Shown: positions 22,777-33,565 of the stretch, piece by piece
Layout of the letters: each line of letters begins with the position of its first letter
Numbering within the stretch: the first letter of the stretch is position 1
Assembly (NCBI GenBank): GCA_017469115.1
Contig: JAFUGY010000079.1
Coordinates: forward strand, 1 to 34,127
Direction: 5' to 3'
Length of the DNA stretch: 34,127 nt
Source: Oscillospiraceae bacterium
GTDB taxonomy: Bacteria > Bacillota > Clostridia > Oscillospirales > Oscillospiraceae
Notes under the pieces: generated by a model
What the model was told of the DNA's origin: nothing
The model's input: the letters and a program-made list of their open reading frames with translations, nothing else
Database searches by the model: none
Program-made: the position numbers and the translations under genes

Positions 22777-24027
22777 TTACTGAAAAATCTGATTTACTGC
22801 CATCATCACGCCGAGTTTGCCGGATTCATAGGTGAGGCCGCCCTGCAGATAAACGCAGTAAGGGTCGCGCATGGGCCCGTCGCACGAAAGCTCGATGGAG
22901 CTGCCCTGGATAAAAGCGCCTGCCGCCATGATGACATCGCAGTCATATCCCGGCATGGGAGCCGGAACAGGAGCGACAAAGGAATCCACCGGAGCGCCTG
23001 ATTGAATGCCGCGGCAGAAGGCTTCCATTTTTTCGGGTGACCCGAGAGAAATGCGCTGAATGATATCCGAACGCTTTTCATCGTAACGAGGAAAGCTCTC
23101 ATATCCGCAAAGGTGCATCATGGCAGCGGCAAACACCGCGGTTTTCACTGCCTGCATCACAATATGCGGCGCCATGAAAAATCCCTGGAACAAAAGCCGG
23201 CTCGTGCCGAGGGTCGAGCCGCATTCCCCGCCGATGCCCGGCAATGTGAGCCTGCAGGCAGCTTTTTCAATCAGGTCTGCCCGGCCGGCAATATAGCCGC
23301 CCGTGGGTGCAAGGCCGCCGCCGGGATTTTTGATGAGTGAACCCGCCATCAGATCGGCTCCGACATGGGTCGGCTCCAGAACATCGGTGAATTCCCCATA
23401 GCAGTTGTCCACAAAAATGGATACGTCCTGCCGCTTTTCCTTGACGGTTTTACAAATCTCCCCGATTTGCTGAACAGAAAGCGCTTTTCTCGTGCTGTAG
23501 CCGATGGAGCGCTGCAGCGTAACCGCTTTCACAGCAGGATCTTCCAGCGCTTTCAGAATTCCCGGGAGATCGGGGGAACCGTCTTCCCGGAGATCTACCT
23601 GCTCATAACCGATGCCGTAAAACCGCAGGGAGCCAAACTCCTCCCCCGTGATGCCGATGGCCTGATGGAGCGTGTCATAAGGCTTCCCTGTAGCAGCGAG
23701 AATTTTTTCTCCCGGGCAACACAAAGCGAACAGCGCCGCTGTGATGGCATGGGTGCCGTTGACAAAATGGGGGCGTACCAGGGCAGCTTCGGTGCCGAAA
23801 ACGCGGGCATAGATTTTCTCCAGTGTTTCCCTGCCGAGATCGTCGTAGCCATAACCCGTTGTTCCGGCAAAGCAGGCTTCGGAAACACGAAATTCCTGAA
23901 AGGCATCCATCACGCGGATGGTATTCTGTTCGCAGATTTCTTGCAGGGCGGCAAACTGCGGGGCCGCAAGCGCTTCGGCACGGCGGGCAAGATCCATGAT
24001 TTCGGGTCTGATTTCTGAACTTTTCAC
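22777..24027 (-). CDS. Methionine gamma-lyase family PLP enzyme ('aluminium resistance protein', YnbB-like)
   Basis: A 416-aa cytoplasmic PLP-dependent enzyme of the aspartate-aminotransferase fold. The N-terminal segment GTTGYGYDDLGRETLEKIYA and the tract RPHFVNGTHAITAALFALC are typical of the family annotated as methionine gamma-lyase or aluminium resistance protein. The cofactor lysine is expected in AGSLIKNPGGGLAPTGGY; FVDNCYGEF holds the aspartate that binds the pyridine nitrogen. The C-terminal region has QGSSIELSCDGP and LQGGLTYE. The reaction is uncertain; cleavage of sulfur amino acids is the usual guess. The start is GTG at 24027, overlapping the murD stop as GTGA, so the two genes are translationally coupled. 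No terminator follows; the rplU promoter lies straight after it. Confidence 0.88.
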   Translation of the reverse strand: MKSSEIRPEIMDLARRAEALAAPQFAALQEICEQNTIRVMDAFQEFRVSEACFAGTTGYGYDDLGRETLEKIYARVFGTEAALVRPHFVNGTHAITAALFALCCPGEKILAATGKPYDTLHQAIGITGEEFGSLRFYGIGYEQVDLREDGSPDLPGILKALEDPAVKAVTLQRSIGYSTRKALSVQQIGEICKTVKEKRQDVSIFVDNCYGEFTDVLEPTHVGADLMAGSLIKNPGGGLAPTGGYIAGRADLIEKAACRLTLPGIGGECGSTLGTSRLLFQGFFMAPHIVMQAVKTAVFAAAMMHLCGYESFPRYDEKRSDIIQRISLGSPEKMEAFCRGIQSGAPVDSFVAPVPAPMPGYDCDVIMAAGAFIQGSSIELSCDGPMRDPYCVYLQGGLTYESGKLGVMMAVNQIFQ

Positions 24028-25409
24028 TCTTCCAGCTCCATTACCAGTTTTTTGAAATGTCTGCCTCTCTCGGCAAAGTTTTTAAAAGCGTCGAACGCAG
24101 CGCAGGCCGGTGAGAGGAGCACAATGTCCCCTTCCTGCGCCATGGAAGAAGCCTCATGAACAGTCTGATCAAAGCCATCGATCTTTTTCAGGATCAACCC
24201 GGACGAGGCAAAATACGGTGAAGCTTTCACGGCTTCGGCAATTTTGTCGGCCGTGGCACCCGTCACCAAAACGGCTTTGGCTCGCAGGCAGAGCTCATCG
24301 CCGAGGGAATCAAAGGGAATATGCTTGTCGTATCCGCCTGCAATCACAATGGGCTTTGTTTTCAAAGCATGCAGGCCGGCGATGGTGCGCGTCGGACTGG
24401 TGCCGATGGAATCGTTGATATAGGTGACGCCGTGAAGCACACGCACTGTCTCCAGCCGGTGCTCAACACCGCGAAATGTTTTGGCAACCGAGCAACAAAT
24501 TTCATCACTCACCAGATCGGCTGTGGCAGCAAAGGCCGCCATGTAGTTCATGCAGTTGTGCTCGCCGGGCAGAAGAATTTCATCAGAGCGCATGATGGGC
24601 GTGAACACACCGTGATCGGCACGCAAGAGCACGCCGTCTTTCCGGAATACACCGTCCGGTACTTCCTTCTCCAGAGAGAAATAGCGCTTTTGTGCAGCAG
24701 CTTCCGAGGCAAATTCGTGCGTGCGGGCATCTTCTGCATTCAGGACGATGACGTCTTCTTGCCGCTGCCTGCGGTAGATTGACTTTTTGGCGTCTACGTA
24801 ATCTTCATAATCCTTGTGCTTGTCGAGATGGTTGGGGCTGATATTGGTAATCACCGAAACATCCGGCCGGCACTCCATACTGTGCAGCTGGAAAGAGCTG
24901 AGCTCCAGCACAACAATATCCTCTTTTTTCATCTCCGGGGTTTCACACAGAAGAGGCTTGCCGATGTTGCCCCCGAGATGCACCGTGTAACCTGCCGCCT
25001 TCAGCAGCTCGGAAATGATGGTGGTCGTGGTAGTCTTCCCGTCGCTCCCCGTCACGGCAAAGATGCGGCAGGGACAAACCTGAAAGAAGACCTCCATCTC
25101 TGAAGTGATCACGCTGCCCTTTTGCCTTGCCCGCTCGAGATGCTCCTCAAACGGCATGAGACCGGGGGTGCGGAAAATAAGATCAAAATCGAGATCCTCC
25201 AGATAATCTTCTCCGAGGCGAAGATGAGCACCGAGGGCAAGGAGTTTGTCCGCCTCGTCCCCCATCTCTTCTTTTGTGCGCTTGTCACAGGCCGTCACAC
25301 GGCAACCGGAAGCAAGCAGCATGGTAATCAGCGGCTCATTGCTCACCCCGATGCCAATCACACAGATTGACTTTTCGCGGATGGACTCGACATAGTTTTC
25401 CAACGTCAT
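24024..25409 (-). CDS. murD: UDP-N-acetylmuramoyl-L-alanine:D-glutamate ligase
   Basis: Adds D-glutamate to UDP-MurNAc-L-Ala in cytoplasmic peptidoglycan precursor synthesis, using ATP. 461 aa. The N-terminal Rossmann-like domain shows VIGIGVSNEPL; the ATP-binding loop is TGSDGKTTTTT (120-130; usual form GTNGKTT); ELSSFQL and ITNISPNHLDKHKDYEDY follow, then NAED and the C-terminal YINDSIGTSPTRT and VIAGGYDKHIPF. It is complete. The ATG at 25409 follows GGGAGGAG. It stands away from the usual mur/fts cluster, here divergent from rnpB and coupled to a PLP enzyme. Confidence 0.95.
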   Translation of the reverse strand: MTLENYVESIREKSICVIGIGVSNEPLITMLLASGCRVTACDKRTKEEMGDEADKLLALGAHLRLGEDYLEDLDFDLIFRTPGLMPFEEHLERARQKGSVITSEMEVFFQVCPCRIFAVTGSDGKTTTTTIISELLKAAGYTVHLGGNIGKPLLCETPEMKKEDIVVLELSSFQLHSMECRPDVSVITNISPNHLDKHKDYEDYVDAKKSIYRRQRQEDVIVLNAEDARTHEFASEAAAQKRYFSLEKEVPDGVFRKDGVLLRADHGVFTPIMRSDEILLPGEHNCMNYMAAFAATADLVSDEICCSVAKTFRGVEHRLETVRVLHGVTYINDSIGTSPTRTIAGLHALKTKPIVIAGGYDKHIPFDSLGDELCLRAKAVLVTGATADKIAEAVKASPYFASSGLILKKIDGFDQTVHEASSMAQEGDIVLLSPACAAFDAFKNFAERGRHFKKLVMELEE

Positions 25410-25517: not shown

Positions 25518-25546
25518 TTGACGGGGCAGCATTTTTCCTTTAAAAT
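25518..25546 (+). promoter_or_regulatory. rnpB promoter
   Basis: TTGACG (25518-25523), 17 bp, TAAAAT (25541-25546), placing transcription start near 25553, just at the P1 helix of the RNA. Confidence 0.75.
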
Positions 25547-25552
25547 ATGCTC

Positions 25553-25910
25553 CGCAAGTCAGCCGAGCGGCCGCGGGCACAAGGCGAAAGCCTGTGCGTG
25601 AGGAAAGTCCGGGCTCCGAAGGGCAAGGATAACGGGTAACGCCCGCCAGGGGTGACCCTCGGACAAGTGCAACAGAGATATACCGCCGGCAAATGCTTTG
25701 CTTTTGCCGGTAAGGGTGGAAAGGCGAGGTAAGAGCTCACCCACCGCATGGAGACATGTCGGTGCTGTAAACTCTATCCGGAGCAACACCGTGGGAGAGC
25801 ATATGGCCTGCCCGGCCGCTCTCAGGAGGTGGCTTGAGCCTTTCGGCAACGAAAGGCCACAGATAGATGGCCGCTTAAGACAGAACCCGGCTTACAGACT
25901 GACTTGTATT
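25553..25910 (+). ncRNA. rnpB: RNase P RNA
   Basis: The catalytic RNA of ribonuclease P, which matures tRNA 5' ends. Conserved blocks appear in order: GAGGAAAGTCCGGGCTCC (about 25601), ACAGAGATATACCGCC, AAGGGTGGAAAGGCGAGGTA, AAACTCTATCCGGAGCAACA, then AGATAGATGGCCGCTTAAGA and CAGAACCCGGCTTACAG near the 3' end. P1 closes with CAAGTCAG (25555-25562) against CTGACTTG (25900-25907). The arrangement fits class A. Its last ~18 bases are the left attachment site of an integrated element, which restores the 3' strand of P1 exactly, so the RNA should be complete and functional. The hairpin downstream (25918-25953) is element DNA. Confidence 0.96.
25891..25910 (+). repeat. Left attachment site (attL core), 3' end of rnpB
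   Basis: CTTACAGACTGACTTGTATT, identical to 30685-30704. The flanking bases differ on both sides, so the shared core is exactly 20 bp. It includes the 3' strand of rnpB helix P1. Confidence 0.93.
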
Positions 25911-25917
25911 AATTTCT

Positions 25918-25953
25918 AATCCCGCTCATTTTGTTCTTAATATGAGTGGGATT
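25918..25953 (+). terminator. Element-borne terminator now serving rnpB
   Basis: AATCCCGCTCA (25918-25928) pairs with TGAGTGGGATT (25943-25953) over 11 bp with one G-U wobble; loop 14 nt, then TTCATATTT. It starts eight bases inside the element and replaces rnpB's own terminator, displaced to 30706. Confidence 0.75.
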
Positions 25954-26298
25954 TTCATATTTCCCCATCATTTAGCATTAGATAGTTCATAGATTTAAAT
26001 TAAAAGTATCCTATTTTCCCCTTGTCCCCATGTTTTTCCCCATTATGTACCTGTTTTTTCCCCTTTTCCCCCATATTTGCGGGTGGAATTATCATTGATT
26101 TTTTCCCGCTCCCATGCTAAAATTTTCTTGCGGTCGTGGCTGACCGACATATATTCATATTGTCAAATTCATATCGGAAGAGCCCTGCACTTGCCATGCC
26201 GGGCTCGTTCTTATTATTGATATTTTTGTGATTTTGTGTTACAATAAAAAAGAGGCGAAGATCTTGCTCACTTCACCTCACAACATCCATCTGGGTTA
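25954..26298. other. Left end of the element: arm-site-like motifs and hairpins, no gene
   Basis: Several C-runs after T-runs occur (TTTCCCCAT 25959, TTTTCCCC 26012, TTTTTCCCCATTA 26033-26045, TTTTTTCCCC about 26051), likely integrase arm sites. A GC-rich hairpin GAGCCC..GGGCTC lies around 26179-26206. No ORF of interest is present. Confidence 0.55.
26033..26045 (+). promoter_or_regulatory. Candidate integrase arm-type site, left
   Basis: TTTTTCCCCATTA, identical and in the same orientation to 30557-30569 near the other end. Related TTTTCCCC motifs cluster on both sides, as arm-type sites of tyrosine integrases do. Confidence 0.45.
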
Positions 26299-26330
26299 GC
26301 TGCTGGGGCTCACGTACCAGCAGCTTTTTT
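26299..26330 (+). terminator. Terminator facing the element's leftward operon
   Basis: GCTGCTGG (26299-26306) and CCAGCAGC (26317-26324), then T6. It is oriented to stop plus-strand transcription, such as read-through from rnpB, and overlaps the last codons of the 120-aa gene on the other strand. Confidence 0.75.
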
Positions 26331-26672
26331 GTTCTCTGCAAAAACTTCACTTCTCAATTCTGCAACAACATCTTCCGCAACTGCAACCAAAGCCGCAGCC
26401 CTGTCGCTGTCGTTGATCTCCAAATAACGGCTTGCACTGTCAAGCAAGGCTTCTAACTGTGTTACATACAAAAAAGCTTGCTTGATGATTGCCCTATACT
26501 GTGGGACTGCCTCCGACAACATTAAATCGGCTGTAAGCTGCCTGAGTTCCTTTCTCTGCCGCCTGACGGCACCTGATGCAATGCCGCCCTTCTGGCCGTT
26601 TTTCCGGGCTTCCTCCGGGCTTTGTCTACCTGAGAACTGAATGAGATTATTAATGTTACCCACTGTTATCAT
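26310..26672 (-). CDS. KGG-motif small protein, element gene
   Basis: A 120-aa product starting MITVGNINNLIQFSG. The segment SPEEARKNGQKGGIASGAVR is a Lys/Arg/Gly-rich motif found in many small phage and plasmid proteins, followed by two amphipathic helices (VPQYRAIIKQAFLYVTQLEA and SDRAAALVAVAEDVVAELRS). The nearby ATG at 26717 would add 15 residues but lies within the preceding gene; ATG 26672 has AAGG before it and overlaps the previous stop, so coupling is likely. Function unknown. A DNA-binding or small-terminase-like role has been suggested for similar-looking proteins, but nothing here proves it. It is the last gene of the leftward operon. Confidence 0.65.
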   Translation of the reverse strand: MITVGNINNLIQFSGRQSPEEARKNGQKGGIASGAVRRQRKELRQLTADLMLSEAVPQYRAIIKQAFLYVTQLEALLDSASRYLEINDSDRAAALVAVAEDVVAELRSEVFAENKKAAGT

Positions 26673-26808
26673 CTGCCTTCGAACGGGCTTCCGGCTCTTT
26701 ATCCTTCCCCTCGGCACGAATAAACTGCAATAATCCGGCTCCGGCTGTCCTCAAGTCATCCAGCAGCCCCGCCGGGTCTGCAAAGTCATCTGTAAATACT
26801 GAATCCAT
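26656..26808 (-). CDS. Small acidic protein (50 aa), element gene
   Basis: ATG at 26808 with AAGGAG seven bases upstream. The product begins MDSVFTDDFADPAGLLDDLR, continues TAGAGLLQFIRAEGKDKEP and ends after ARSKADDNSG. It is acidic in the first half. It overlaps the start of the KGG gene by 17 bases in another frame, suggesting translational coupling. No known family was recognised. The good ribosome site and tight overlap are the evidence for it being real. Confidence 0.6.
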   Translation of the reverse strand: MDSVFTDDFADPAGLLDDLRTAGAGLLQFIRAEGKDKEPEARSKADDNSG

Positions 26809-26867
26809 GTAAAGCTCCTTTTCTGTATAGGGGAGCGGGATTGCTCCCCCTCTGTCATTTTGGCTCG

Positions 26868-27004
26868 TGTATTTTTACACTAAGACCCGCTCAAATCTTA
26901 GTGACTTTTTACACTAATATTGATACTGTTCTCTCTTGCTCTTAGTGACTTTTTACACTAACCGTCCCTGATTTTCCCTCTTGCCCCTTAGTGACTTTTT
27001 ACAC
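26868..27004. repeat. Iteron array, probable replication origin of the element
   Basis: CTTAGTGACTTTTTACAC occurs exactly at 26897-26914, 26941-26958 and 26987-27004, spaced 44 and 46 bp (about four helical turns). A partial copy (TTTTTACACTAA, 26872-26883) precedes them. The first two copies extend to TAA, making each unit an imperfect palindrome, TTAGTG-N8-CACTAA. The array lies directly 3' of the replication-type gene, in the position of SaPI-like origins, and also upstream of the 50-aa gene. Confidence 0.75.
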
Positions 27005-27025
27005 GAGAATTATAAATATTACCAT

Positions 27026-27493
27026 TTACTCTATTTCTTTTTTTCGGATTTTTCGCCTCATTGCATCTGTCATATTAGCACAATCCACCTCGATAACGCT
27101 GGAAGGGTCAAAGTGCATCCAATCGGCTGAAAACTTGTAGATTGACTTTGTACGTGTTACGGCTCCACATTCAACACATTTTACAAATCCATGCATTATC
27201 AACGACTCCATATCTCGTTGAAAGCCTCTATGGTTTTCCTTCGTGTATAAATGATATTTTTCTGCCCATTTCTGCTGATTCATCGTGAACGTCTCCCTGT
27301 CATCTTCAACAGGCTTTTTCTTCTCACTATAATATTGACTTTTGCAAGTAAGATACAGCACCCTTGCTGATGCTGATAGGTCTTGCCATGCAGTAGAAAG
27401 CATCATGGACTCATATATATTTGCAGACGTGTCCGATGGTTGCAGCGTGCTTTCGAATGGCTTCTTCTCGTACTTTTGCTTTTTCCCGCCCAC
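27026..27493 (-). CDS. Replication-initiator-like protein, element gene
   Basis: The 155-aa product has a basic N-terminus (MGGKKQKYEKKPFESTLQPS), then a segment of the kind found in plasmid and satellite replication proteins: IYESMMLSTAWQDLSASARV, LYLTCKSQYY and FTMNQQKWAEKY, a predicted winged helix. A CVEC pair follows (about residues 110-113). It lies five bases after the preceding gene, with iterons immediately downstream, which supports an initiator that binds them. I infer this from position and general pattern; no replicase or helicase motif is visible, so host or helper enzymes would be required. ATG at 27493. Confidence 0.55.
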   Translation of the reverse strand: MGGKKQKYEKKPFESTLQPSDTSANIYESMMLSTAWQDLSASARVLYLTCKSQYYSEKKKPVEDDRETFTMNQQKWAEKYHLYTKENHRGFQRDMESLIMHGFVKCVECGAVTRTKSIYKFSADWMHFDPSSVIEVDCANMTDAMRRKIRKKEIE

Positions 27494-27498
27494 ATCAC

Positions 27499-27951
27499 CT
27501 AAACCTCACTACCATCAATGCCCATTTGTCCAGGCATCACACCCAAAAACCGCCGTAGCCTGTGAACTGTAACCATTGTGTTTCCACCCCTGCGAGCGTA
27601 AGTGGCAGCGCATCGGGCAATATCTGCCCTCCCTTGTGGCGTTGACGGATCTGCTAACCAATAGCCACGACCTTTTCCACCTGTGACAATCGGACTCTGC
27701 AAGCGTTCTTCTCGAATCATTTTTTGCAGATGCCGCCGTGCATCCTTATCCTGACTCATACCCAATGCCTCAAGAATTGTTTCATCCGACATTTTGGCTC
27801 CCTCACTCAATGCTCGGCTGCTCCATAAGATTTTAGCCACTGGTCCTTGTGTTTCACTTTGAGATGTGGTATACTCTTTTTGCGTTGTAGAGTTTTCCAT
27901 GACCTCGTGTGTGCCGCTGCCGTCCCGCAGCGGCTTTTTCTTTTTGTACAT
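27499..27951 (-). CDS. Winged-helix protein, element gene
   Basis: The 150-aa product begins with a basic, low-complexity lead (KKKKPLRDGSGTHEVMENST). The central region looks like a winged helix (ILEALGMSQDKDARRHLQKM, then IVTGGKGRGYWLADPSTPQG as the wing) and continues into an Arg-rich helix (RADIARCAATYARRGG). This pattern recurs in phage and satellite genes upstream of replication proteins. The start could be an internal ATG (MENSTTQKE at residue 18) in place of 27951. The gene is next to the replication-type gene, with a gap of only five bases. Function is inferred as DNA binding; not established. Confidence 0.55.
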   Translation of the reverse strand: MYKKKKPLRDGSGTHEVMENSTTQKEYTTSQSETQGPVAKILWSSRALSEGAKMSDETILEALGMSQDKDARRHLQKMIREERLQSPIVTGGKGRGYWLADPSTPQGRADIARCAATYARRGGNTMVTVHRLRRFLGVMPGQMGIDGSEV

Positions 27952-28042
27952 CTGTATGTACCTCCTTTGATAGTGTTTTTGCTGTATATGTCACACCACC
28001 ACCGAAAAATCATACTCGCACTAATACATATACAATAATTAA

Positions 28043-28258
28043 TTATGCCCTAATTTCTTGCCCGACCATCTCTGATAATGCTTCTTCCAACTGTTGCCTT
28101 GGCACGATGATAGAATTGTTTACTCTAATTGAAGGAATTACGCCGCTCCTAATCATCCCATACACAAGGGGTAAACTCAATCCTAACACCTGTGAAACTT
28201 CCGCAGGCCGATATGCCATTTTATTGGCAAGACTGCTGTGTTCCTTCTTCTCTTCCAT
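28043..28258 (-). CDS. Excisionase-like HTH protein (MerR/HTH_17 type)
   Basis: A 71-aa product with a single helix-turn-helix: AYRPAEVSQVLGLSLPLVYG followed by MIRSGVIPSIRVNNSIIVPR, the standard pattern of the excisionase/AlpA group in which the wing ends in 'xxPRxxL' (VPRQQLEEAL). Such proteins bend DNA at attachment sites and steer tyrosine integrases to excision. It stands in the xis position of satellite-like elements, first or second gene of the leftward operon, divergent from the repressor. The start overlaps the 57-aa gene by 38 bases. ATG at 28258. Confidence 0.78.
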   Translation of the reverse strand: MEEKKEHSSLANKMAYRPAEVSQVLGLSLPLVYGMIRSGVIPSIRVNNSIIVPRQQLEEALSEMVGQEIRA

Positions 28259-28394
28259 TTAGTTCCTCCATAACTTTTTTCTGCCAATAACGCATGTTAA
28301 TTGCTCTGACTTTATCAGGGTGTTTGGCTCTCCACTCTCTCTGATACTTGTTCCGGGCTTGACGTATTTTTTCCATCATGTCAACTTCATTCAT
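28221..28394 (-). CDS. Small basic protein (57 aa), first gene of the leftward operon
   Basis: ATG at 28394 with a GGAGGG site upstream. The product contains KIRQARNKYQREWRAKHPDK and VRAINMRYWQKK, a highly basic helical pattern (YxREWRxKxPDKV..xxRYWxKK) I recognise from small proteins of phages and integrative elements of Bacillota, function unknown. It overlaps the excisionase-like gene in a different frame. Basic composition suggests nucleic-acid binding. Confidence 0.7.
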   Translation of the reverse strand: MNEVDMMEKIRQARNKYQREWRAKHPDKVRAINMRYWQKKVMEELNGREEGTQQSCQ

Positions 28395-28426
28395 GTAAGT
28401 TTTCCCTCCTTTATTTCATAATCATC

Positions 28427-28480
28427 TTGACATTTGTCATTATATCATGCTATAATGTAGCTGTAAACGTGATTATTATT
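28427..28480 (+). promoter_or_regulatory. Repressor promoter with operator-like palindromes
   Basis: TTGACA (28427-28432), 18 bp, TATAAT (28451-28456): near-consensus. TGACATTTGTCA straddles the -35 box. ATTATA and TATAAT arms bracket the spacer end, and TGTAAA/TTTACA arms follow downstream. The region lies between divergent operons, where a switch would be expected. Confidence 0.7.
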
Positions 28481-28508
28481 TACACCTATTGTTAAGGAGC
28501 TGTTTATT

Positions 28509-29177
28509 TTGAAATACAACGAACGCATTAAAATAATAGGCGAACGCATCAAACAGGCACGGGAAGAAAAAGGAATGTCACAATCTGAGCTTATAACCCA
28601 ATTGCAAAATCGGATGGATGGTTCTTCTATTGGCAGGAATACTCTATCAAAGCTGGAAAATGGAAATGTATCAAATATACAGAGCCATCTAAAAACATTA
28701 TATGCAATCGGCGAAATACTGGACCTTGATATTAATCATCTCATTGGCGAACAAGAGCACACATCTTTAGATCGTGTTGATATTTCAAAGTATACCGGTC
28801 TTTCTGACAAAGCAATAACCATTCTGCATGACTCCATATCGACATTAGATAGATTACCTTCAACTTTTCTTAATGACTTAATCGAAACTCCCTCTTTTTG
28901 GCGAATGGCCTATCAGTATGGACAGATCTTGGAACGACAAAAAAGGTACAATAACCGGAAAAGTGAATTCAAAACAATTTCTGATTTCATAACTGCAGAA
29001 GCAAGCAAAGCTTTATTCAACGAAATTGAAGACTCTTATCAAGATCTCCGTGATATTTCACAATTATTTTCAGAAGAATCGCACGAACAACAATTGAGAG
29101 ATGACCTTGATTTTGAAGAGTATAAACTTCAAAAAATGCTTCTTGACTTCTTCCATCGCACAGAAGATAAAAAATAA
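28509..29177 (+). CDS. XRE-family repressor of the element
   Basis: A 222-aa protein with an N-terminal helix-turn-helix of the Cro/C1 type: IGERIKQAREEKGMSQSELI and IGRNTLSKLENGNVSNIQSH (about 10-60), followed by a ~150-residue acidic helical C-terminus without a recognised protease (LexA-type) domain. It starts at TTG (28509) with AAGGAG nine bases upstream. Divergent from the 57-aa and excisionase-like genes, it is placed like the Stl master repressor of satellites. Without a self-cleavage domain, induction would need a partner protein rather than RecA. This last is inference. Confidence 0.82.
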   Translation: MKYNERIKIIGERIKQAREEKGMSQSELITQLQNRMDGSSIGRNTLSKLENGNVSNIQSHLKTLYAIGEILDLDINHLIGEQEHTSLDRVDISKYTGLSDKAITILHDSISTLDRLPSTFLNDLIETPSFWRMAYQYGQILERQKRYNNRKSEFKTISDFITAEASKALFNEIEDSYQDLRDISQLFSEESHEQQLRDDLDFEEYKLQKMLLDFFHRTEDKK

Positions 29178-29295
29178 AAAAACGCCCCTGCACGGCCAAT
29201 GCAGAGACGTTCTTGGTAAACAAGCAGATCACTTCACAAATCAGCCTGCATTCCATAGAATACCAGAATGCGGGCAAAATTACAAGGAGGTAATT

Positions 29296-30510
29296 ATGCC
29301 CAGAAAGAAAAAAGAGGCAACCACACGCGCGCCCAAAGGTCAAGGAAGTGTCAAGCAGCGCACCATCACCAGAAATGGCAAGACTTATATTTCATGGCGC
29401 GCTCGGTGCTTCATTCCCGATCCAGATACCGGCATTCCACAACTTAGAGAATTCACCGGCTCTTCTCAGAAAGAAGCACTTGCCAAAATGCAGGAAGCGC
29501 AAAAGCAAGTTGCTCTCGGCACCTATCAACCGCGCCGGGAAAAAGAATTCACTCTTGCTGAGTGGATTGACGTCTATACTTCTGAATACCTCAATTCCGT
29601 TAAGCACCGGACGAGAGAAACTTACACCAATGATCTTGCTAAGCACGTAAAGACTGATAAAATCTCAAAACTCAAATTGACAAAGATAACTCCCCTTCAC
29701 ATCCAGAAACTTTACAACGGATTTACTAACCGGATTAGCGGCGAACCACTCAACCCCAAAACAGTTAAAAATGTTCATGCCGCTCTGCATCAATGCTTGC
29801 AAAAAGCTGTTGATATTGGCTTGCTTCGGTTCAATCCGACCGACAAGGCGGACTTACCGAAAATCATTTCTCCAGAGATAAAGCCTTTAGATGAGCACGA
29901 CATTGAGAACTTTCTCTCGTCTGCTCAAAAAAACAAGTATTATAATCTGTTTGTGGTTGCTCTATTCACGGGAATGCGCAAGGGTGAAATTCGCGGGCTG
30001 TCTTGGGATGAGGTCGACTTTGAAAACGGTCTGATAACAATAAAGCATCAGCTGGATTCGAAAGGTCGTAATGTTCTCCTTCCCACTAAAAATTCTAAAC
30101 CTCGCACCCTTCGGCCTGCTCCTTCTATCATGCAGCTTCTCAAATCAATCAAGACAAAGCAATTTCAACAGATGCTCGAGGTTGGCTCCGATAATTGGAG
30201 GAACGAATTAAATCTTGTATTCACACATTCGGACGGATCCCCTTACAGCTCCGAAACTGTCTATTTGAATTTCAAACGGATAGCAGAAAAAATTGGACGT
30301 CCTGACGCTCGATTCCATGATCTTCGTCATTCTTACGCGGTGCAATCCATCCGGAACGGTGACGATCTCAAGACTATACAAAACAACCTTGGTCATTCAA
30401 CGGCAAGCTTCACTCTTCAAGTGTATGGACACGTTACGGATACAATGATGCGCGAATCCGCTGAGCGAATGGACAAATTTATTAAAAATCAGAAAATCAA
30501 AATCAGTTGA
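29296..30510 (+). CDS. int: Tyrosine recombinase / integrase
   Basis: Site-specific recombinase, 404 aa, that should integrate the element into rnpB. The N-terminal arm-binding domain comes first (GQGSVKQRTITRNGKTYISW), then the SAM-like core-binding domain (about 85-185) and the catalytic domain. Catalytic residues: Arg228 (FTGMRKGEIRGL), Lys in the beta hairpin near 253-268, His341 and Arg344 (FHDLRHSYA), His367 (LGHSTASFT) and Tyr377 (QVYGHV). All are present. The correct start is ATG 29296 with AAGGAGG (29284-29290); the open frame reaches 29101 but would overlap the repressor gene. A strong terminator follows at 30516. It lies beside the right end of the element. Confidence 0.97.
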   Translation: MPRKKKEATTRAPKGQGSVKQRTITRNGKTYISWRARCFIPDPDTGIPQLREFTGSSQKEALAKMQEAQKQVALGTYQPRREKEFTLAEWIDVYTSEYLNSVKHRTRETYTNDLAKHVKTDKISKLKLTKITPLHIQKLYNGFTNRISGEPLNPKTVKNVHAALHQCLQKAVDIGLLRFNPTDKADLPKIISPEIKPLDEHDIENFLSSAQKNKYYNLFVVALFTGMRKGEIRGLSWDEVDFENGLITIKHQLDSKGRNVLLPTKNSKPRTLRPAPSIMQLLKSIKTKQFQQMLEVGSDNWRNELNLVFTHSDGSPYSSETVYLNFKRIAEKIGRPDARFHDLRHSYAVQSIRNGDDLKTIQNNLGHSTASFTLQVYGHVTDTMMRESAERMDKFIKNQKIKIS

Positions 30511-30515
30511 TCTTC

Positions 30516-30549
30516 TTCCCCATGAATCAAAAACATGGGGAAATTTTTT
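30516..30549 (+). terminator. Integrase terminator
   Basis: TTCCCCATG (30516-30524) and CATGGGGAA (30534-30542) with a 9-nt loop, followed by ATTTTTT. The arms contain the TTCCCCAT motif found near both ends of the element. Confidence 0.85.
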
Positions 30550-30684
30550 CCCCATATTTTTCCCCATTAACCCATTTATTTTGATTTTTCCAGATTATAC
30601 CACATTTTGAATGTTGACTTTCTCTCTACATTATTACATTTTAGATTTCAACAGATTGTGGCTGCTTTTGTGGGTCCGCCCCAT
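30543..30684. other. Right end of the element: arm-site-like motifs, no gene
   Basis: TTTTTTCCCCAT (30544-30554) and TTTTTCCCCATTA (30557-30569) repeat the left-end motif. The rest is AT-rich and empty up to the core site. Confidence 0.5.
30557..30569 (+). promoter_or_regulatory. Candidate integrase arm-type site, right
   Basis: TTTTTCCCCATTA, identical to 26033-26045. About 115 bp from the right core. Confidence 0.45.
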
Positions 30685-30704
30685 CTTACAGACTGACTTG
30701 TATT
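30685..30704 (+). repeat. Right attachment site (attR core)
   Basis: CTTACAGACTGACTTGTATT, exact copy of the rnpB 3' end at 25891-25910. The original continuation of rnpB follows. Confidence 0.93.
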
Positions 30705-30705
30705 T

Positions 30706-30744
30706 ATGATGCTGCAGCACTTTTGTTTGCAGCATTATTTTTTT
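30706..30744 (+). terminator. Displaced original rnpB terminator
   Basis: ATGATGCTGCA (30706-30716) pairs with TGCAGCATTAT (30728-30738) over 11 bp with one G-U wobble, followed by a run of T to 30744. It sits at the place, relative to the core, where rnpB's terminator would be if the element were absent, and has no gene of its own to end. Confidence 0.75.
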
Positions 30745-30856: not shown

Positions 30857-33565
30857 ATGGCAAGAGAAATACTGTTTGATCTTGGCAAAATGATTACGGA
30901 CCGTCTTCCGTACAAATTCGGCATCAAGAAGCTGACGGAGACCGATCCGGAATACATTATTCTGGACAGGGCATGCACCAGCGATGAAATCGCTGAGATC
31001 ATGTTTAAGATGGAGCTGAGAAAGCCCAAAACCACTGCAGAAATTGCAAAAATTACCGGCAAGTCAGAGGAACGCATTACCGAGCTGCTCACGGATGCAG
31101 CGGAACACGGCATCGTCGAATACAACTGGGAAAATCCGCAGCATGAAAAGCAATGGTACGTCCAGCTGTTTGTGCCCGGGATCGCCGAGATGACCAATCT
31201 GGTACGCTGGCAGGTAGACAAATATCCGGAACTTGCCGATTCTTTCGACAAAATGACCTTCCTGCCGTTGGAAGGGAAAACGCACCTGATTCCTCCCGGA
31301 GGAGACGGTATCGGCATGCACGTCATCCCCGTGGAAAGTGCCATCCCTGCCAAGAGCGAATCCGCTTCTATCGAACACCTCACCCACTGGCTGGAGAAGT
31401 ATGACGGACAACTGTCCGTCGGTTACTGCTCCTGCCGCAACGCCCGCCGCCTTTATCATGAAGGCTCCGGTGAAATTCAGGATGACTGCTGCATCGGCGT
31501 CGGCGATTTTGCCACGTATCTGATTGAGACCAACAAGGGCCGCCCCATCACCAAGGAAGAAGCCCTGGAGATTCTCAAGCGCTCGGAAGACAACGGCTAT
31601 GTGCATCAGGTCACGAATATTGACGGGAAAGACAAGATTTTCGGCATCTGCAACTGTGACGTGGGCGTTTGCTTTGCCCTGCGCACCAGCCAATATTTCA
31701 ACACGCCAAACCTTTCGGCCTCCGCTTACCGCGCCCATGTGGATAAAGACAACTGCGTTGCCTGCGGCAAGTGCGTGGAAGTATGTCCTGCCGGCGCTGT
31801 AAAGCTCGGCCAGAAGCTCTGCACCAAGCACGGCGATGTGGAATATCCGAAACAGGAACTCCCCTCCGGCCTGAAGTGGGGCAAAGATAAATGGAACCCG
31901 AACTATGTGGTAGACAACCGCAAGAACTGCCATGAATCCGGCACGGCACCGTGCAAAACCGCATGCCCGGCCCACATTGCCATTCAGGGATATATCAAGC
32001 TGGCAAAAGAAGGCCGCTATCTCGATGCCCTCAAACTCATCAAACAGGATAACCCCTTCCCCTCGGTTTGCGGCTACGTCTGCAACCGCAGATGTGAAGA
32101 AGCCTGCACCCGCGCCTCTCTCGACAAGGCAGTCGCCATTGACGAGATCAAGAAGTTCATCGCCGAGCAGGATCTGAAAGGCGAAGAGCGCTATATTCCG
32201 GAACCCATCCGCCGTCGCCCGATTGATAAACCCTACGAGGAAAAAGTTGCCATTATCGGTGCAGGCCCTGCCGGTTTGAGCTGCGCTTACTATCTGGCGC
32301 GCATGGGCTATACCAACGTCACCGTATTCGACCGCAACCCCCAGCCCGGCGGTATGCTGATTATGGGCATCCCCAGCTATCGGCTCGATCGCAGTGCCCT
32401 CAAAGGCGAAATTGAAGTACTGGAAAAGATGGGTGTACACTTCCGCATGAACACCGAAGTGGGTAAAGACGTCACCATTGAGCAGCTCCGTGAAGAGGGC
32501 TACAAGGGCTTCTATGTTGCCATCGGCGCACAGAAGAGTGCCAAACTCGGCATTCCGGGTGAAGAGTTTGCCGGCGTTTTCGGCGGAGTTGACTTCCTGC
32601 GTGAAGTGAATCTCGGCGGAAGCCCCGATATTGGGAAGAAGTGTGCCGTCATCGGAGGCGGCAACGTGGCAATGGATGTTTGCCGCACAGCCGTTCGCCT
32701 CGGTGCAGAAACAACCGTGATCTATCGCCGCAGCGAAGAAGAGATGCCGGCTGACAAGGAAGAGATTGCCGAAGCAAAAGCCGAAGGCGTGAAGTTCTGC
32801 TTCCTCAATGCACCGATTGAAGTTCTCGGTACAGACGGCAAAGTGACCGGATTGAAAGTTGAAATCATGGAACTGGGTGAGCCGGATGAAAAAGGCAGAC
32901 GGAAACCCGTCGGCACCGGCAATTATGAAATTCTGGAAGTGGATTCCGTCCTTGCAGCAGTCGGCCAGACGATTGACTGGGGCGGGCTCGACGTAGGGAA
33001 ACTCTCTACCGGCAAAAAGGGCAACGCCCTTGCCGATCCCGTCACGTACCAAACGGAGCAGGCTGACATCTTCGTCGGCGGTGACGTTTACACCGGCCCG
33101 AAGTTTGCCATTGATGCCATTGCCGCCGGCCGCGAAGGTGCCGAATCACTTCACCGCTTTGTTCAGGAAGGACAGAGCCTTACCAGAGGCAGAAACCTCC
33201 GTGAGTTTTACGAGCTCAATAAGGAAGATCTCCTCTTCGGGCTTGACAGCTTTGACCGTCCTGCCCGTCAGCCCATCCTGCACGATGAAAAGAAGGTCGG
33301 AACCTTCGAGCATGACAGGCTCACCTTTACCGAAGAGCAGGTCAAATCGGAAGCTTCCCGCTGCCTCGGATGCGGCGTAAGCGTCGTCGACCGGAACAGA
33401 TGCATCGGTTGCGGGCTCTGCACCACAAAGTGCATGTTCGACGCCATTCATCTGCAGCGCGACGTGCCGGAAGCTTCCAACATGGTACGCTGCGAAGACA
33501 AAGTCGGGCCCATGCTTCGCCATGCTGCAAAACAGAGCATCAACATCATCCGCAAGAAGAAATAA
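30857..33565 (+). CDS. GltD-like FAD/NAD(P) oxidoreductase with several Fe-S domains (902 aa)
   Basis: A cytoplasmic electron-transfer flavoprotein. Residues ~1-280 are a region with a predicted winged helix (TAEIAKITGKSEERITELLT) and clustered cysteines (YCSCRN 190-195, DDCCIG 209-214, ICNCDVGVC 264-272), likely binding a cluster. Next is a ferredoxin motif, CVACGKCVEVCP (300-311), then a GltD N-terminal domain (CKTACPAHIAIQGYI, CGYVCNRRCEEACTR). FAD binding is IIGAGPAGLSCAYYLARMG (466-484), pyridine nucleotide binding VIGGGNVAMDVC, with YRRSEEEMPA and GGDVYTGPKFAIDAIAAGRE. A last ferredoxin-like motif, CIGCGLCTTKC, is near the C-terminus. The family resembles glutamate synthase small subunit but no large subunit is nearby; it may move electrons between NAD(P)H and ferredoxin. 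ATG at 30857 follows GAAGGAG. Confidence 0.88.
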   Translation: MAREILFDLGKMITDRLPYKFGIKKLTETDPEYIILDRACTSDEIAEIMFKMELRKPKTTAEIAKITGKSEERITELLTDAAEHGIVEYNWENPQHEKQWYVQLFVPGIAEMTNLVRWQVDKYPELADSFDKMTFLPLEGKTHLIPPGGDGIGMHVIPVESAIPAKSESASIEHLTHWLEKYDGQLSVGYCSCRNARRLYHEGSGEIQDDCCIGVGDFATYLIETNKGRPITKEEALEILKRSEDNGYVHQVTNIDGKDKIFGICNCDVGVCFALRTSQYFNTPNLSASAYRAHVDKDNCVACGKCVEVCPAGAVKLGQKLCTKHGDVEYPKQELPSGLKWGKDKWNPNYVVDNRKNCHESGTAPCKTACPAHIAIQGYIKLAKEGRYLDALKLIKQDNPFPSVCGYVCNRRCEEACTRASLDKAVAIDEIKKFIAEQDLKGEERYIPEPIRRRPIDKPYEEKVAIIGAGPAGLSCAYYLARMGYTNVTVFDRNPQPGGMLIMGIPSYRLDRSALKGEIEVLEKMGVHFRMNTEVGKDVTIEQLREEGYKGFYVAIGAQKSAKLGIPGEEFAGVFGGVDFLREVNLGGSPDIGKKCAVIGGGNVAMDVCRTAVRLGAETTVIYRRSEEEMPADKEEIAEAKAEGVKFCFLNAPIEVLGTDGKVTGLKVEIMELGEPDEKGRRKPVGTGNYEILEVDSVLAAVGQTIDWGGLDVGKLSTGKKGNALADPVTYQTEQADIFVGGDVYTGPKFAIDAIAAGREGAESLHRFVQEGQSLTRGRNLREFYELNKEDLLFGLDSFDRPARQPILHDEKKVGTFEHDRLTFTEEQVKSEASRCLGCGVSVVDRNRCIGCGLCTTKCMFDAIHLQRDVPEASNMVRCEDKVGPMLRHAAKQSINIIRKKK

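Follow-up and report, generated by a model that had tools for sequence, protein, structure and literature searches.

A 4.8-kb tyrosine-integrase element at the 3′ end of rnpB that very probably supplies both the RNA end and a replacement terminator

Tyrosine-integrase elements that occupy tRNA and tmRNA genes include genomic islands, prophages, and integrative plasmids, and terminator restoration by some of the tRNA elements may already stand in older reviews. Most bacteria have a single copy of rnpB, the gene for RNase P RNA, and cannot do without it; therefore, an element inserting there must rebuild the gene exactly. In ICEKp1 of Klebsiella, which is located at tRNA-Asn, the tRNA promoter is reported to drive int, the int gene being co-directional and directly downstream, and stem-loops in the int 5′-untranslated region represent a potential terminator and attenuate read-through (PMC13023037). 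Here, we analyze an element at the 3′ end of rnpB in contig JAFUGY010000079.1 of an Oscillospiraceae bacterium (34,127 nt; the whole stretch is referred to as the window). Coordinates are positions in the window, and "the genus" is the genus of its genome.

The final 20 nt of rnpB (CTTACAGACTGACTTGTATT) recur exactly 4,794 bp to the right. No third copy with up to three mismatches is present on either strand of the window, and 0 of 100 shuffles give such a repeat. The repeat offset corresponds to the size of the element, and the element proper comprises positions 25911–30684 plus one core copy. The two junctions contain the following features.

25555..25910, + strand, rnpB, class A RNase P RNA whose 3′ end is apparently rebuilt by the element (RF00010, 278.4 bits, model 1–367, full length)
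25891..25910, + strand, attL core, 3′-terminal 20 nt of rnpB with the 3′ strand of P1 (exact repeat)
25918..25953, + strand, terminator-like hairpin carried by the element, 7 nt 3′ of rnpB (−18.4 kcal/mol, z −6.8)
30685..30704, + strand, attR core, repeats only the 3′ end of rnpB (exact repeat)
30706..30738, + strand, hairpin, apparent native terminator of the chromosomal rnpB, now to the right of the element (−16.5 kcal/mol, z −4.8; position matches the rnpB hairpin in genomes G020, G110, and G078)

Within the attL core, inverted TACA/TGTA half-sites flank GACTGACT (judged by eye), and may serve as a recombination site.

To place the junctions among related loci, we surveyed rnpB in the genus. 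RF00010 is found in 83 of 102 genomes (82 above the cut-off), with one match per genome. The rnpB region was taken from 80 genomes, leaving out the window's genome, the sub-cut-off pieces of G115, and G028 (contig end). The rnpB 3′ end could be placed in 79 of the 80 regions, in which the sequence after rnpB has a median length of 12 kb and is shorter than 2 kb in nine. Three genomes (G110, G078, and G020) have empty sites, in which rnpB is preceded by murD and followed by the oxidoreductase gene also found in the window, with no element. The corresponding flanking genes of the window are as follows.

24024..25409, − strand, murD, chromosomal left flank (PF08245 1.7e-35, PF02875; the upstream neighbour in the three empty-site genomes is 75–85% identical, part fetched)
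30857..33565, + strand, Fe-S/NAD(P) oxidoreductase, glutamate-synthase-like, chromosomal right flank (domain and family matches; the gene directly 3′ of rnpB in the empty-site genomes is 83–92% identical)

The amino acid identity of the downstream oxidoreductase to that of the window is 92% in G110, 90% in G078, and 83% in G020 (over 469 of 902 residues only). When the two flanks of the window are joined, they align with the empty-site genomes through the terminator region. In G110, G078, and G020, rnpB is followed by a hairpin and then by GTTATGCATGACTAA; in the right flank of the window, a hairpin at the equivalent place is followed by GTTATACATGACTAA. A same-strand repeat of the rnpB 3′ end (at least 14 nt) is found downstream in none of the 79 other rnpB loci of the genus, in the sequence fetched.

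The arrangement is very probably the product of site-specific, integrase-mediated insertion into the rnpB 3′ end, with both the RNA end and the terminator replaced by the element. Support for this reading comes from the three empty sites, from the open integrase frame, and from the viral contigs described below, which contain rnpB junctions and attP-like sites. The integrase would recombine the 20-bp attP core with the identical rnpB 3′ end, thereby inserting the 4.8-kb element. At the left junction, 5′ sequence of the host and 3′ sequence of the element would together make up the whole RNase P RNA; the adjoining element arm would provide the replacement terminator, and the host terminator would be pushed to the right of the element. 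RNase P RNA should still be made after insertion. We infer the attP × attB event, working termination, excision, and circle replication.

Both hairpins lie close to their cores, the right one beginning 1 nt and the left one 7 nt past the 20-mer. The T tract is weaker at the left hairpin (TTTTCATATTT) than at the right, and the two hairpins have no obvious sequence in common by eye. A consensus terminator scan with a loop limit of 3–8 nt lists neither of them. The original prediction, made from the window alone, had claimed an exact recurrence of the rnpB 3′ end, the original rnpB terminator on the right, and an element that rebuilds both the RNA end and its terminator. The first claim is confirmed and the other two are supported: the core has two copies in the window, the right hairpin lies where the three empty-site genomes have their rnpB hairpin, and rnpB is full length with a hairpin, predicted to terminate, directly behind it. 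The left hairpin had been called equivalent and at a similar distance; a stable hairpin is indeed there, but its offset differs and its T tract is weaker. Empty sites with the same flanks exist as anticipated, in related genomes; an element-free strain of the same species, with which the exact letters proposed across the junction could be compared, was not found. A second copy of the rnpB end in element-free relatives, which would count against the prediction, is not seen in the sequence fetched from the 79 loci.

Two base pairs of P1 differ, by eye, between the window and the empty-site genomes G110 and G020. One is A–U in the window but A opposite C in both of these genomes; the other, further inside the helix, is A opposite C in the window and G–C in G110 and G020. 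P1 may have been changed through the 3′ strand delivered by the element.

Relatives of the integrase (E ≤ 1e-40) are present in 52 of 101 genomes of the genus, including that of the window, and the best others listed are 43–48% identical to it. No listed relative lies on the rnpB contig of its genome, as judged by eye from coordinates, a weak negative given the short contigs. After near-identical and C-terminally incomplete sequences were dropped, 38 relatives were kept. In 29 of them, a tRNA gene lies no more than 500 bp from the 3′ end of the integrase gene, and all 29 pairs are convergent. These tRNA-adjacent integrases come from the same genus, family, and order, and are mostly 37–44% identical to that of the window (one, 25%). 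On the element arm, a terminator-like hairpin begins 0–8 nt past the tRNA in 28 of the 29. All 28 meet a stricter rule (ΔG ≤ −9, start within 12 nt) that is satisfied by 50 of 1,500 random 80-nt windows from 20 such loci. Of 16 relatives tested, six (L293, L298, L305, L309, L295, and L294) contain a repeat of the tRNA 3′ end; in these six, a hairpin is also seen by eye 3′ of the other copy, and the distances imply elements of ~4.7–9.0 kb. Since nearly all tRNA-adjacent relatives carry the hairpin, terminator replacement appears to be a habit of these elements and not specific to rnpB.

The closest relative by identity with a fetched neighbourhood (L301 in G012, 46%) has no tRNA within 15 kb, and L306 and L308 have apparent tRNA 3′ pieces beside int, as seen by eye. 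Searches with the single integrase returned only remote relatives from genome contigs (23–32% identity, mostly proteobacterial) and two remote relatives from viral contigs. No second genome with this element turned up in the searches made. Separately, locus L347 (G096:C20) has two integrases on one contig at a single tRNA-Ser, and a partial tRNA copy separates this tRNA from the first integrase; the locus is probably a tandem array of related elements.

Viral contigs were scanned with conserved rnpB 3′ ends, which yielded 37 and 20 stretches, many of them chance matches. Five contigs bear junctions or putative attachment sites in rnpB. In G872 (IMG/VR 3300035388_000034, 41.7 kb; L343/L344), a prophage, the rnpB gene runs off one end of the contig, and its 3′ end recurs ~39.5 kb away; the two copies agree at 40 of 41 bases in the main block, and each is followed by a hairpin. 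In G870 (L341), G871 (L342), and G868 (L264), rnpB 3′ ends lie next to a convergent integrase. No RF00010 match was found in the stretches searched of these three, nor in L264 at a relaxed threshold, and we read their rnpB 3′ ends as putative attP sites. L235 is a prophage junction that contains the whole of rnpB, portal and terminase genes, and an integrase frame that ends 33 bp beyond the RNA gene; it is GC-rich (66%) and probably actinobacterial. Counting the window, five of six rnpB-targeting element arms have a hairpin that starts within 25 nt.

The integrases of these five contigs are 22–28% identical to that of the window (for G871 over 63 residues only), whereas tRNA-adjacent relatives reach 44%. 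A FastTree phylogeny of 39 rows (without L031, which is the window's own copy, L335, and G871) places the window and 34 relatives apart from G872, L235, L264, and G870, with a local support of 0.925. Because the window integrase is thus grouped with 34 closer relatives, rnpB was probably adopted as a target more than once. A careful integrase tree is not decisive owing to long branches, and ancestral use of rnpB with later losses is an alternative compatible with these data.

These comparisons qualify three further suggestions of the original prediction. The view that rnpB is an uncommon target fits the genus, in which the window is the sole case seen, but several phage contigs use the same gene. 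Integrases adjacent to rnpB do exist, as the search it recommended reveals, but those in the five viral contigs are only distantly similar to that of the window. The idea that a supplied terminator keeps an essential RNA functional is supported as to the supply; it does not extend to a special adaptation to rnpB, given the hairpins of the tRNA relatives. In the literature covered, from which subscription papers were mostly absent, we saw no account of an attachment site in rnpB; a listing in the TIGER or Williams 2002 catalogues is possible.

Several other candidates were set aside. Nineteen stretches of viral contigs containing the exact 16-nt start of the window core are read as chance, none having an integrase match in the locus. 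Whole rnpB genes occur in the phage records MT835553 and MT836823 (no integrase match in the stretch fetched; these look like host contigs), in a Phocaeicola plasmid record (no integrase match in the 14.5 kb fetched), and in pMM59_01 of Pusillibacter (no integrase annotated in the 8 kb shown). L335 and the L229-type contigs, the latter with an integrase ~1.1 kb before the rnpB 5′ end, were omitted from the rnpB-targeting set; L335, with an integrase ~800 bp 3′ of rnpB, is a possible further rnpB-targeting prophage. Within the genus, 13 of the 80 rnpB loci have a weaker integrase-like match, seven within ~100 bp and six at 5–10 kb. The genes at ~100 bp are read as housekeeping; they are convergent with rnpB, and the one tested matches XerD above the cut-off.

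The orientation of the integrase bears on the role of the left hairpin. Across the 29 tRNA relatives and the five viral contigs that target rnpB, integrase and RNA gene are convergent. In the window, the integrase is co-oriented with rnpB and sits at the far end beside the partial copy, which leaves the core in the opposite orientation to the integrase. The start of int is 3.4 kb from rnpB, with opposite-strand genes between. The hairpin remains on the RNA-gene side although the core is flipped, and the integrase is followed by another hairpin.

30535..30555, + strand, separate hairpin 3′ of the integrase gene (terminator scan)

The best surviving alternative is that the left hairpin does not act for rnpB but closes the leftward element genes or belongs to the attP structure, its position being incidental. 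The genes at the left end of the element are read towards this hairpin, its + strand T tract is short, and the consensus scanner passes over it. In addition, the hairpins of the tRNA relatives have the tRNA on one side and a convergent integrase on the other, and might act for the integrase rather than for the tRNA. However, the tract after the left stem on the − strand (AGAAATTAATACAAG) is less T-rich, and the hairpin is found on the RNA side in the great majority of the tRNA and rnpB arms alike. In the window, moreover, the flip separates the hairpin, 7 nt past rnpB, from the integrase, which has a hairpin of its own, and a role for rnpB is therefore favoured. We consider the alternative unlikely. 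The orientation argument comes from one clear flipped case; L349, at tRNA-Ser, is a possible but ambiguous second.

Further observations weigh against insertion with terminator replacement. One of the 29 tRNA relatives and the L235 arm lack a hairpin by the rule. The random background windows were not matched for intergenic position. Some of the 29 tRNA relatives are near copies of each other, and the 28 hairpin cases are therefore not 28 independent events. By rule, no terminator within 40 nt is found in 15 of the 79 rnpB loci of the genus, although longer hairpins can be made out by eye in part of this set. In five of the 15, murD starts 36–45 nt after the start of the core, indicating that a near terminator is common but not obligatory for rnpB. 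Finally, an element-free strain of the window's own species was not found, and the assembly is a draft.

In the five loci that run into murD (L179, L169, L173, L186, and L228), no terminator-like hairpin is present by rule between the core and murD, which suggests that rnpB and murD are co-transcribed there. The order of the window, murD before rnpB, recurs in Pusillibacter faecalis, another member of the Oscillospiraceae. A 504-kb replicon of this species (L346, NZ_AP023421.1), labelled a plasmid and typed as conjugative, bears rnpB, murD, and ligA; it may be a chromid or a mislabelled piece of chromosome.

The gene content of the element is listed below, together with a promoter-like site ahead of rnpB.

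25518..25546, + strand, promoter-like site ahead of rnpB, TTGACG-17-TAAAAT (consensus match only)
26310..26717, − strand, 135-aa phage-like protein of unknown function (phrog_2412, 3.4e-11)
26656..26808, − strand, small open reading frame of 50 aa (relative in G110; 40% identity over 52 positions in L297)
26862..27007, no strand assigned, four palindromic 20–22-mer copies (TTAGTGACTTTTTACACTAA), 73–100% alike, iteron-like (repeat search)
27026..27493, − strand, 155-aa protein, putative replication initiator (53–60% identical relatives in three tRNA-flanked elements)
27499..27951, − strand, 150-aa protein of unknown function (46% identical relative in G110)
28043..28258, − strand, excisionase-like protein (PF12728, 7.8e-9; TIGR01764 above cut-off)
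28221..28394, − strand, 57-aa phage-like protein (phrog_14214, 1.8e-9)
28427..28467, no strand assigned, overlapping divergent promoter-like sites between the leftward genes and the repressor (12/12 and 11/12 consensus matches)
28509..29177, + strand, XRE-type repressor (PF01381, 4.2e-5, above cut-off; PF12844, 7.7e-7, just below)
29296..30510, + strand, tyrosine integrase, 404 aa (PF00589, 3.4e-27; PF14659, 3.7e-9; phrog_1, 5.6e-67; solved 'Int protein' 6emy, 1.1e-14)

The element is very probably a cryptic integrative element with a tyrosine integrase at an RNA-gene 3′ end. It has an integrase, an excisionase-like protein (xis), a repressor, and a putative initiator with repeats; if it depends on a helper, it could be a phage satellite like the phage-inducible chromosomal islands (PICIs). 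Scans of the 155-aa protein against PHROG, NCBIfam, and PDB gave no match, and Pfam gave nothing above the cut-off. In the elements of all three of its relatives, repeats lie just 3′ of the gene (L293, 6242–6383; L294, 6562–6666; L295, 6989–7131). The repeats of the window, L293, L294, and L295 each have their own sequence but a common palindromic design by eye, and the protein and repeats are a probable replication initiator with iterons, that is, an iteron-like origin module.

Among the eight element proteins, no relaxase or conjugation gene was found by Pfam, PHROG, NCBIfam, and PDB scans, and no capsid, portal, or terminase by Pfam and PHROG scans. This poverty is what would be expected if the element were a decayed relic fixed in place, with an intact rnpB kept only by selection. 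Such decay is rather improbable, as the integrase, xis, and repressor frames are open, the cores are still identical over 20 bp, and the 155-aa protein has relatives with a matching repeat layout in other elements. Assembly chimerism or chance, to which the draft state of the assembly (148 contigs) and the lack of a second genome with the element in the searches made might point, can practically be dismissed, since the junctions lie exactly at the rnpB end, the homologous right flank is known from three other genomes, an integrase and xis with matching att repeats denote a mobile element, and shuffling never gives the repeat.

Beyond site-specific insertion into rnpB, a wider proposal can be made, towards which we lean only slightly. 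This integrase clade would carry a portable attP cassette, consisting of an RNA 3′ end plus a terminator, that is kept on the RNA-gene side even if the core is flipped, and rnpB would be a general, overlooked site of several unrelated integrase lineages. If so, integrases could switch RNA targets, including single-copy rnpB, without silencing the target and without promoter read-in to the element. What is new is rnpB as the target; the kind of element, a tyrosine-integrase element at an RNA-gene 3′ end, is known. A core ribozyme gene is thus added to the integration targets, phage examples included, and a testable rule is suggested: along with the RNA end, elements of this kind also bring a new terminator. 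Elements in rnpB would escape genomic-island searches restricted to tRNA and tmRNA genes. Three results add most to the original prediction, namely that terminators are apparently supplied by relatives too, that the flipped orientation serves as a control, and that phage contigs contain further att sites in rnpB.

Compared with elements in tRNA and tmRNA genes, the element shares an integrase of the kind found at RNA-gene 3′ ends, a direct repeat, and a gene rebuilt at one end. It differs in that its target, rnpB, has one match per genome, in contrast to one of many tRNA genes, and in that its core is oppositely oriented to the integrase. The rnpB-targeting viral contigs (G872, G870, G871, G868, and L235) likewise use the rnpB 3′ end as core, with a hairpin after the core in four of the five, but these are contigs of 10–52 kb, with packaging genes shown in L235, and their integrases are convergent with rnpB. 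In ICEKp1, as here, insertion moves the native terminator of the RNA gene beyond the distal end of the inserted DNA; in the window, however, a hairpin lies 7 nt past the RNA gene and int is at the far end (PMC13023037). The layout required for control of int by the target promoter, as in ICEKp1, is not found in the window. The PICIs at fis (PMC10111431) are also small elements with an att block at a gene end beside a terminator, but their target is protein-coding and the block of identity can reach into the host terminator, whereas the two terminators of the window differ in sequence.

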